34,983 nucleotides of DNA from Saprospiraceae bacterium. Its GTDB lineage: Bacteria > Bacteroidota > Bacteroidia > Chitinophagales > Saprospiraceae. Positions within the stretch are counted from its first letter, which is position 1. The number at the start of each line of letters is the position of its first letter. Shown in pieces: positions 22,283-34,983 of the stretch. The stretch spans positions 7,590-42,572 of the forward strand of contig JAHDHB010000001.1 of the NCBI GenBank assembly GCA_020631545.1, written 5' to 3'. The notes under the pieces were generated by a model. That model was not told the DNA's origin. It did not search any database and saw nothing but the letters and a program-made list of their open reading frames with translations. The position numbers were made by a program, and so were the translations under genes.

Positions 22283-25200
22283 TTACACCTTATCAGATTT
22301 ACTTAACGATTCACTTGTAGACTCCTCTTTTTTCCAAAGAGGAAGCGTGACAATAAACTTGGCTCCGTTTCCTTTTTTAGAAACGACCTGAATGGTTCCA
22401 TTGTGAGATTCAACAATTTTATGCACAATCGCCAGCCCTAAACCTGCTCCATCACCTTCCTTTTCTTCTTGTTTGAAGAGAATAAATATCTTATCTTGAA
22501 AACTTTGACTTATTCCTACCCCCTTGTCTTTAACACTAAAAACAAGGGAATTAGCAACCACCTTAAACTCAATTTCAATTTTAGGCGAGGTATTGGGTTT
22601 TGCAAATTTTAGGGCATTACTAAGTAAATTTTGAAAAACTTGCTTTAGCAAATAGTCGCTACCAACCACAAGACGAGGCTTTCCAATTATCTTAACTTCT
22701 GCATTAAGGGCGTTGATTTTGTTAGAGAACTGCACCAGCGTCTCGTCAACAATAGTACGCAAGTTAACCGGTTTAGCGGGAACTTCATTGACAAAGAATT
22801 TGATATAATCTTGAAACCCATCAATCAATTTGTGCATTTGTCGGGTACTTTGGATAATATACCCCATGTATTCTTCTGATTCTGGCCCCAACTGTTTATT
22901 CCTTCTTGCCAATAATTGTGTAAACCCCGTAATATTTCGCAAAGGCTCTTTTAGATCATGTGAAATCATGTAAATAAAATGCTCAAGAGAATCATTGGAT
23001 AATTTCAAATGCTGACCTCTTTCTTCAAGCTGATTCAACACATTGACCAACTCACTATTTTCAATAAATAAAGTAATGGAGTCCTTTACAGCACCCTCCC
23101 GGCCTACCATAGGCTTATTGATGAGCATAAAATTTCGATTATCGAACCTTAGTGTTCTATTAAATGATTCACCACTAATGATATCTTCAACAATTTTTTT
23201 TACCCCTGGAATATTAGAAAAAACTTCTTGAAAAAGTTTTCCAGTTAAATTTTCCTCCGGCAAATTTTTATTGAAAAAAGCACCGTTCGCATGGCTTATT
23301 CTACCCTTTTTATCTAGTGATACCAAAAAAATGGGAAGATTATTCAACAAGGAGGTAAGGTAAGCTTTTTGCTGAGCGATTTCATCCTCTGCTCTTTTTC
23401 GTTCATCGTTTTCTTCCTTGAGTTGTTTGGTCAAACTCTTTAAACGTCTCGCTTCTTTTAAGGATTCAATATTAATAAACGTAAGTAAAATCCCCTCAAT
23501 AACATTACTAGAAGATCGATGAGGAATAATTCTTAATAAGAACCATTCACCATCAAGGTTATTAATCTCATACTCCTTGGGTTGCAAAGTTCTAAAGACT
23601 TCTTCAATATCCCGCTCCAACTTTTTAGGCTCTGGAATATTAAGGGAAAAATCAGATAAAGAACGACCAAAATCTACCTTTTTAAGGGCAACAATCGGCT
23701 TAACAGCAGCATTAAACCGTCTTATTTTTAAATTCCCATCAAGGAAAATAATTCCAATATTGATATTATTAAGAAGATTGGTTAGATCGTCATTTAGAAC
23801 AGAAAGTCGATTGATATAAGCCTGATGTTCTGCATTTACCGTATTAAGCTCTTCATTAAGAGATTGTAACTCCTCATTAGTACTTTGTAATTCCTCATTA
23901 GCAGATAGTAGCTCTTCATTTGAAGTTTGCAGCTCTTCGATAGTAGTTTGTAAATTCTCTCTACTAATTTGAAGCTCTCCTTCCAAATCAGAAATTCGCC
24001 CCATCATGGCCTCATCTAGTTCAAAATTAGACATTTGCTTGATAGTATCGGTTGATCCTATCTGTTTATTACCTACCTTTTGAAGAACAATAAGAATGAA
24101 TCGCTCTTCTGTACGATTTTCAACAACGACTTTAACTGATAAATCTATCCTCCGTTTTTCATCTTTTTCTACGAGAACATCCTTATAAAAAACTTCCTCA
24201 TTGTCTTTAACAGCCTTATTAATCGCGGTTACTAAGGAAATTCCTAGATTTCCCACAGCTAAATCCATTACATTCCAAGAAAGATTCTTTTGAGAAGGAA
24301 ATTTCAAGTAAGGATTTACATCTCCAAAAATATGAATAATATTACAATTCGTATCAACAAGCAAACTAGCTAATTCAAATTTTTCTGTTAATGCTTGGCT
24401 ATAAAGCCGTAGAAGCTGATCTTCAAATATTTGAGCATAGCCATTCGTATAAACAGGAACACGATTTCGCCTAATCCTAGTAACGGTAGGAGCCTGAAAA
24501 CCAAATCGTTGAACAGAGTAAGAATGCTGATTAAGCTTAAACAAACGCTCTTTTCTAGCAGAAGCGGTAAATCTATCTTCAAATTCTGCTGGTATCGTTT
24601 CACTACTCCCCAGAAATAATACTCCCCCTTTAAGCAAACTATAAGAAAAAACTTCAAAAACCCTGTCCTGCAATTTTTTATTCATGTAAATAAGCATATT
24701 CCTACATGAAACAAAATCGATTCGATTAAAGGGAGGATCTCCTACGACATTATGGTAAGAGAAAACAATCATTTTTCGAATTTTTTGAGAAATTTGATAA
24801 TTTTCCCCGTCTTTAATAAAGTTCTTTTCAAGCCTTTCAGAGCTTAATGTAGCTACTAGGCTTTCAGGATAAGCCCCCTTTCTAGCAAAGTCTAAAGCGC
24901 GTTTATCAATATCTGTAGCAAATATTTTCACATTCAACGTCTTGTTCAATTCCAACATACATTCATTAATCGTGATGGCAATCGAATAAGCCTCTTCCCC
25001 TGTAGCACAAGCAGTTACCCAGACCCTAAAATCTCCATCATCAATCTTTATAATGTATTCTAACAACAACGTTTTTAAAGCTGCAAATGATTCCTCATCT
25101 CTAAAAAAACTAGTAACACTAATTAGGAATTCTCTTTGAAGAATAGCAGGTTCGTTTGGCGTAATCTCCAAATAAGCAAGGTAGTCTTCAATTGTATTTA

Positions 25201-25960
25201 AATTGTTCACGGATATCCTACGCTTAATCCTCCGTAACAAGGTATTCTCTCTATAATTCGAAAAATCAATATTGGTAGAACGTTGTACTAGCTTTAAAAT
25301 CTCTGATAAAGCATTCTGAGGCAATAGTCCCTTTTCTATCTGCTCATTTACATCTGTCTTTTTATCAAAACTGAATATGAACCGGATGATTTCCGACGGC
25401 ATTTCATGAGGCAGCAAGACATAATCCACCAATCCCGTTCTGATGGAGTTATTCGGCATACTAGAGAATTTAGCATCATCAGGATCTTGTGCCATTACCA
25501 TACCTCCGTACTCCTTGATCATCCTTATACCACTTGTGCCGTCACTCCCTGAACCTGAAAGAACGACTGCAATTGCTTTATCTTTCTTGTCTTGTGCTAA
25601 TGAGCGGAAGAATATATCTACAGATAAGTTAGGTGTTTTGGATTGAAGCCGATCTGTCGTTAAAAAAACGCCATTATGTATGGTCAAATTTTTACCTGGA
25701 GACATCAAATAGACATAATTCGCACGAACTTTCTCTTTATCTTCAGCCCTTTTTACTTTCAGTACAGTTTTCTTAGATAAAAGTTCCGTCATCAAACTTT
25801 TATGTACAGGAGACAAGTGCTGTATGATTACATAGCAAATATTCTCATGAGATGGGCAGTGATAGAAAAATGTTTCTAAAGCTTCTAACCCTCCAGCAGA
25901 AGCGCCTACTGCTACTACAAAAATGTCCTTTTCCGTTTTTTGTTCAACAACCATATACAA
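22283..25960 (-). CDS. CheB-CheR-PAS-histidine kinase fusion protein
   Basis: 1225 aa; [17 protein letters not shown] (CheB-type), [17 protein letters not shown]...[19 protein letters not shown]...CRNMLIYM (CheR), [35 protein letters not shown] coiled coil, two PAS-like segments, [19 protein letters not shown] (H box), [35 protein letters not shown]. Confidence 0.93.
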
Positions 25961-34202: not shown

Positions 34203-34283
34203 TTATTTACTAGCAAGTCGATGCATAAAATCATCTAAAGGGTAGTCGTAATTTTCGGGCAATGTAGGAATTGTACTTGACAT
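34203..34283 (-). pseudogene. Truncated N-terminal remnant of the tandem coiled-coil paralog family
   Basis: Minus translation MSSTIPTLPENYDYPLDDFMHRLASK* matches the start of the 34349..34726 protein (MSSTSPKLPENYDYPLDDFMHRLVNG); homology stops after codon 23. Confidence 0.75.
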
Positions 34284-34348
34284 TTTGCTATGAGTTGTGA
34301 TGAATTCATGTTTTTACTCGGAATAACAAATCCTTAGAATTGGACAAG

Positions 34349-34726
34349 CTAAAAGAATTTTCGTACCATTTCAATAGGAAAATTAAGGATTTGAGCAATT
34401 TCTTCCATTGAAAATCCTCTATCTGCCAATTTTTTAATGGCAGAGATTTGATCTGTTTTGATTTTTTGGGCTTCTTCTTCTGCTATTCGCTTTTCTTCTT
34501 CTGCTATTCGCTTTTCTTCTTCTGCTCTCCGTGTTCTTTTTTCTGCTCTCCGTGTTCTTTTTTCAGCTCTCCGTGTTCTTTTTTCAGCAGCTTTTCGTGC
34601 TTTTTTCTCCTTTTTACGCCCTTTTTCGACCAACTCATCAAGTCCGAAACCGTTCACAAGTCGATGCATAAAATCATCTAAAGGGTAGTCGTAATTTTCG
34701 GGTAATTTAGGACTTGTACTTGACAT
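34349..34726 (-). CDS. Short coiled-coil protein with heptad repeats and conserved C-terminal helical tail
   Basis: 125 aa; EKRTRRA x3 and EEEKRIA x2 heptads; C-terminal ISAIKKLADRGFSMEEIAQILNFPIEMVRKFF resembles the tail found on Rpn/PD-(D/E)XK-transposase-like proteins. Confidence 0.65.
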   Translation of the reverse strand: MSSTSPKLPENYDYPLDDFMHRLVNGFGLDELVEKGRKKEKKARKAAEKRTRRAEKRTRRAEKRTRRAEEEKRIAEEEKRIAEEEAQKIKTDQISAIKKLADRGFSMEEIAQILNFPIEMVRKFF

Positions 34727-34791
34727 TTTGCTGTGAATTGTGATGAATTCATGTTTTTACTCGGAATAACAAATCCTTAGAATTGGACAAG

Positions 34792-34983
34792 CTAAAAGAA
34801 TTTTCGTACCATTTCAATAGGAAAATTAAGGATTTGAGCAATTTCTTCCATTGAAAATCCTCTATCTGCCAATTTTTTAATGGCAGAGATTTGATCTGTT
34901 TTGATTTTTTGGGCTTCTTCTTCTGCTATTCGCTTTTCTTCTTCTGCTCTTCGTTTTTCTTCTTCTGCTCTTCGCTTTTCTTC
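34792..34983 (-). CDS. Third tandem paralog, C-terminal part only (runs off the window)
   Basis: Near-identical to the 3' part of 34349..34726 at about 443-bp spacing, with a different heptad set (EEEKRRA-type); truncated by window edge. Confidence 0.7.
   Translation of the reverse strand, partial: EEKRRAEEEKRRAEEEKRIAEEEAQKIKTDQISAIKKLADRGFSMEEIAQILNFPIEMVRKFF

Follow-up and report, generated by a model that had tools for sequence, protein, structure and literature searches.

The window, the whole stretch of 34,983 nucleotides of Saprospiraceae DNA that was analysed, ends within a locus that is probably an Rpn toxin–antitoxin system (phage-defence type). In it, an RpnL nuclease gene is followed by stand-alone RpnS copies, one intact and one truncated. 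This reading best explains the anatomy of the array, its family, a conserved internal start codon with its signal, purifying selection, and the recurrence of the arrangement in other genomes. The system is of a known kind, Rpn L/S with stand-alone S, and its variant features are a 7-aa repeat and a multi-copy array.

Array anatomy and the adjoining nuclease gene

At its right end the window has 300-nt direct repeats, spaced 443 bp apart. They are 98% identical and lie on gap-free sequence, which confirms the tandem minus-strand copies described in the initial annotation. A chance origin of the array is excluded by the 211 bp that are identical between copies. The copies, their repeats and the spacers described below are on the minus strand. 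Sequence comparison identified copy A (34203–34283) as a truncated stand-alone copy of 26 codons (MSSTIPTLPENYDYPLDDFMHRLASK) and a stop, in which the homology ends at '...catcgacttg'. Copy B (34349–34726) is an intact, 125-aa stand-alone RpnS-like gene with a head, heptads, and a helix-turn-helix-like tail. The remnant and the intact frame are thus both present as had been claimed. The 21-bp repeats of copy B (34472–34585) encode EKRTRRA three times, EEEKRIA twice, and EEEAQKI. The sequence taken to be a third copy, copy C (34792–34983), is also present. As assembled, however, it is not a separate gene but the 3′ end of the nuclease gene (heptads, tail, and stop), which runs on outside the window. 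Its 21-bp repeats (34915–34983) belong to the EEEKRRA type, which recurs in the nuclease part beyond the assembly gap discussed below, and read EEKRRA-EEEKRRA-EEEKRIA-EEEAQKI at the window edge. Heptads of differing type, as originally proposed, can be read out in both arrays.

A 35-bp spacer (34757–34791) separates the stop codon of the nuclease gene from copy B, and the same sequence (34314–34348) lies between the copy B stop and the start of the copy A homology. The presumed translation initiation region is located 5′ of the copy B ATG (34727–34756). At 28 of 30 positions it agrees with the nuclease gene's internal-start region, in which this sequence encodes KHEFITTHSK. The 211-bp block (34738–34948, identical to 34295–34505) comprises the last heptads, the tail, the spacer, and the first bases of the next head. 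Near identity had been claimed for both ends and the spacer. It holds for the tails and spacers of neighbouring copies, which are identical, but not for the heads of the nuclease gene and copy B, whose divergence is old (about one synonymous change per site).

The edge copy continues rightward across a gap of 100 N into a gene that lies on the minus strand and encodes a nuclease domain at its N-terminus. This gene occupies L005 885–2167 (window-equivalent 34795–36077, minus strand), with its start near L005 2167. The gap (L005 1074–1173) falls inside its heptads; the length of 100 is nominal and hides both the true length and the exact number of heptads in the nuclease. EEEKRRA heptads flank the gap on either side, and their lysine codons alternate between AAA and AAG, so that one gene across the gap is the simplest reading. 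This codon pattern favours a nuclease array running through and disfavours the alternative in which copy C is a third stand-alone gene whose head the gap conceals. A whole-genome DNA search showed no further array copy to the right.

Extending the contig thus located, on the same strand, the full-length Rpn gene that had been suspected further right. Such a gene, with the copies as mere decayed fragments of it, had been named as the case that would overturn the original interpretation. The gene was found, but only the 26-codon copy is decayed; copy B is intact, with a conserved internal start codon and purifying selection. Beyond the nuclease gene, the rightward neighbours (DUF1501/DUF1800-like, deacetylase, and ExbD-like genes, named by eye) are ordinary.

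The Rpn nuclease and its predicted antitoxin part

Judged by its sequence, the nuclease gene is of the Rpn type (YhgA-like, PD-(D/E)XK), with predicted DNA cleavage. It scores 21.2 bits against PF04754 (YhgA-like, Rpn; gathering score 21), which matches 8 of 11 of its own paralogs and 17 of 23 relatives at E<0.01. The NCBIfam model TIGR01784 stays below cut-off for the nuclease gene, and its match to copy B (E 6e-4) is below the curated cut-off. The same genome has about 14 full-length or nearly full-length Rpn paralogs. Residues D12, D67, E87, Q89, and R99 are invariant in 11 paralogs and have the order and spacing (a D-D-ExQ-R pattern) of D11, D63, E82, Q84, and R94, the catalytic residues mutated in RpnA (PMC5350276). 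The full-length model of a relative (pLDDT 86) has a mixed helix/strand N-domain. Foldseek gave no significant match to this model in the PDB; the best was EcoO109I, a restriction nuclease (E 0.06). PADLOC gave no convincing match, only weak repeat-driven ones, and no defence-gene neighbourhood was seen at the locus. The tail had been thought to be Rpn-like, and it does share homology with the C-terminal region of the neighbouring Rpn nuclease gene and of its paralogs. Copy B has no match to any named antitoxin family. Pfam families of eukaryotic coiled-coil proteins (FGF-BP1, CAF1A, etc.) match it below cut-off and through the repeats, and these matches were rejected. Sequence matches in the PDB are 8vd6 'CAP REPEAT' and designed helical proteins.

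In Escherichia coli, Rpn genes encode RpnS within themselves, from an internal start, and RpnS binds and blocks RpnL (Zhong 2023; PMC10327210). The long helix of RpnS has 4-aa repeats in variable number, and in RpnAS it is the first helix of a three-helix bundle (PDB ID: 7TH0; PMC10327210). Inhibition was lost when RpnC-S or RpnC-L was extended by one repeat, and separate downstream copies, RpnES (ypaA) and rpnCS, are already known (PMC10327210). Copy B aligns to the nuclease gene from KHEFITTHSK-MSS onward, and its start is the Met at the matching internal position. Its AlphaFold model has one helix (29–102) followed by two short helices. This is the RpnS plan of a long repeat helix and two short helices, with a repeat unit of 7 aa and not 4. 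Copy B fits a stand-alone rpnS in being intact, C-only, downstream, on the same strand, preceded by a start signal, and under selection. We infer that each copy represents the RpnS antitoxin portion of an Rpn gene in stand-alone form. The copies are predicted antitoxins; this function is transferred from E. coli on the grounds of homology and anatomy. The earlier description as a coiled-coil length-variant family is right about the length-variant repeats and undersells copies that would be stand-alone RpnS-type parts. Copy B had no match among 50,697 phage records, which speaks against phage-encoded S proteins, and the array had no match in two same-genus genomes.

In the mechanism that we propose, the same C-terminal part is probably also translated separately from the internal ATG inside the nuclease gene. 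Binding of RpnS to the matching RpnL helix would block cleavage. The number and type of the 21-bp repeats would set the helix length and hence the pairing specificity. Copies would be made, lengthened, and swapped when unequal recombination runs through the repeats and the identical spacers. For the host, which is Saprospiraceae-like judging by its nearest named relatives, we infer translation, antitoxin activity, and the specificity rule.

The E. coli loci rpnE/ypaA and rpnC/rpnCS share with the Saprospiraceae locus a full-length nuclease gene and, downstream in the same orientation, a stand-alone C-terminal antitoxin part that begins at an internal start with a ribosome-binding signal. In rpnE/ypaA, the repeat number also differs between nuclease and copy (18/18 parsed strains). 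The E. coli repeats are 4 aa long and the S parts 56–88 aa, whereas the Saprospiraceae repeats are 7 aa (21 bp) and copy B is 125 aa. The Saprospiraceae locus further differs in having two stand-alone units, one truncated, a recently homogenised spacer and tail, and a Bacteroidota-type start signal. RpnAL/RpnAS of E. coli K-12 has the PD-(D/E)XK domain with the same catalytic pattern, the internal start, and the C-terminal long helix with short helices; sequence similarity is low. Cyanobacterial Rpn-like/DUF4351 genes (for example L118, L133, L147) also have an internal ATG with a Shine–Dalgarno sequence, mostly GAGGAGG, and several have downstream stand-alone S copies. They differ in their 4-aa GKEI/LEQG-type repeats and in belonging to another tail family.

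Repeat units, recombination, and repeat-number mismatch

Among relatives with a detectable array, the repeat unit is 4 aa (51), 12 aa (5), 7 aa (4), or 8 aa (3), and more rarely 14 aa (2), 11 aa (2), 6 aa (one), or 3 aa (one). Nearly all of these lengths would roughly keep helix phase. The family in the window is of the 7-aa kind, and the presumed specificity ruler would thus not be limited to 4-aa steps. The window heptads are rich in E, K, and R (68–76% charge) and contain 2–5% large hydrophobic residues. This composition suggests that they may form one stiff helix instead of a classical coiled coil. Repeats of 21 bp also occur elsewhere in the window (23849–23950), in a 1225-aa ORF (22283–25960, minus strand) that is apparently a CheB/CheR-PAS-histidine kinase fusion; its heptads are the usual coiled coil for proteins of this type.

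Recombination in the heptads, as initially suggested, fits the identical tails and spacers, the divergent heads, and the different heptad types. The identity of 34738–34948 and 34295–34505 points to recent homogenisation or duplication and fits unequal exchange anchored in the repeats and spacers.

Repeat length differs in 12 of 16 measurable nuclease/stand-alone pairs, across phyla. Both copies are present at E. coli rpnE/ypaA in 20 sampled strains, and the repeat number matches in none of the 18 that were fully parsed. The extra residues (L154–L176) are 0/4, 20/0, 4/16, 32/16, 20/4, 32/4, 20/8, and 32/24. Variation among strains of the kind that the initial annotation asked about for the heptads is thus seen at this E. 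coli locus. Independent variation predicts about 8% matches. The observed zero is close to this value, which rules out a reading as selection against matching; the counts show decoupling. The E. coli ypaA gene is annotated as a pseudogene or hypothetical protein, yet its Shine–Dalgarno sequence, start, and frame are intact. Given the 12/16 pairs and the 18/18 E. coli strains with differing repeat number, most stand-alone copies are expected to be mismatched to their neighbour. If its repeat length differs, the stand-alone copy of the window probably does not neutralise the neighbouring nuclease. More likely, its partner is another allele or one of the 14 or so paralogs of the genome, or it acts as a donor of C-termini.

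It is possible, if somewhat doubtful, that donation is the main role: the copies would then be a store of heptads and tails that are passed to the nuclease gene and change its specificity, and their translation would not be needed. The 211-bp tail and spacer identity of copy B and the nuclease 3′ end, next to heads that differ, agrees with this. So do the E. coli strains without ypaA (L163, L164), in which rpnE ends in a ypaA-type tail; by its sequence, the tail of the stand-alone copy has become the nuclease tail. Zhong et al. describe such fusions (PMC10327210). However, the conserved start signals and low dN/dS reported below suggest translation, and donation can be a side effect.

We also consider it imaginable, at rather low probability, that stand-alone RpnS genes form an immunity bank against Rpn nucleases other than the neighbour (paralogs, transferred alleles), so that repeat mismatch is the point and not decay. 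A candidate example is contig C611 of the same genome (L060 3645–4678), where two tandem S genes stand behind only about 40 residues of nuclease domain. One lacks heptads and is about 80 aa long, counted from the internal Met, whereas many heptads and a 100-N gap are present in the other; between them, dS is 0.19 and dN 0.12. These are candidate solitary antitoxins, and would be such of the immunity kind if the bank is real. One added repeat kills RpnC inhibition, yet stand-alone S copies, in E. coli and in other phyla, mostly differ in repeat number from the nuclease beside them.

Internal start, selection, and recurrence

A Met lies 10–32 aa past the nuclease domain in 80 of 83 non-redundant full-length relatives, compared to 10–53 of 83 in windows of the same size within the nuclease domain. 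A Shine–Dalgarno-like 4-mer is present in the 20 nt before this internal ATG in 42/43 genes from outside the Bacteroidota, versus 8/193 other in-frame ATGs. The Bacteroidota (39 genes) show no such excess before the internal ATG. Here, the frequency of A at −13 to −10 is 0.85/0.87/0.77/0.67, versus 0.27/0.24/0.18/0.14. In Flavobacterium, A at −14 to −11 is an initiation signal of Bacteroidetes (PMC6847099), and the A-rich stretch before the internal ATG is, from its sequence, this known signal. Fisher tests on the start signals are extreme, but the relatives are not independent. The Bacteroidota signal is found at the level of the family; the internal-start context of the window nuclease gene itself (TCATCACAACTCACAGTAAA) conforms to it less well. 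The occurrence of signals across phyla, Shine–Dalgarno sequences in Cyanobacteria and others and A-rich stretches in Bacteroidota, points to a gene-within-gene design as a general trait of the family. The internal Met and the start signals are new support for the RpnS reading, as are recurrence, selection, and the repeat-number mismatch.

Sufficient flanking sequence was available for 110 full-length loci. In 21 of these, a C-only match lies downstream in the same orientation; a few of the 21 are weak or partial. The dN/dS ratio is below 1 in all 18 alignable nuclease/stand-alone pairs (0.19–0.63). When the heads of the window pair, the nuclease gene and copy B, are compared, dS is 1.07 and dN 0.115, a dN/dS of about 0.11; the whole-length value for this pair is affected by the 100-N gap. 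Free drift would raise a pairwise ratio to about one half or more, and copy B is therefore most likely under constraint.

These results bear on the idea that the copies are a by-product, in which tandem duplication of the 3′ end of the gene left non-functional fragments with a chance open frame. Copy A is truncated, and degenerate copies occur at C406 and C31. At C31 (L068, minus strand), a full-length Rpn-like gene is followed after 10 nt by an S copy without 23 repeat residues, and then by a third, degenerate copy in another frame. Such debris would suit a by-product, but the low ratio in the window heads at a dS of about 1 and the 18/18 pairs below 1 would not. Moreover, the ATG and upstream signal are kept in most stand-alone copies. 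C-only matches are common downstream, whereas N-only matches are rarer, and most of those seen represent full-length paralogs in tandem. We therefore regard a by-product as improbable.

Mis-assembly of the 21-bp repeats, as the source of the 443-bp units or of the link to the nuclease, is very unlikely. There is a 100-N gap in the heptads, and comparable gaps interrupt other Rpn repeats of the same genome; however, no gap interrupts the stretch that holds copies A and B and the edge copy, the three are distinct in sequence, and the same architecture is found in many genomes, including complete E. coli chromosomes. A coiled-coil structural protein family independent of the nuclease, which the helical, repeat-rich composition might evoke, is refuted with near certainty by the homology of head and tail to the C-terminal part of the adjacent nuclease and its paralogs.

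Some Cyanobacteria have full-length Rpn-like genes in tandem, two to four per array (L125, L133, L110). Full-length relatives are also carried by 62 cyanobacterial plasmid records, 25 of which are predicted to be conjugative.
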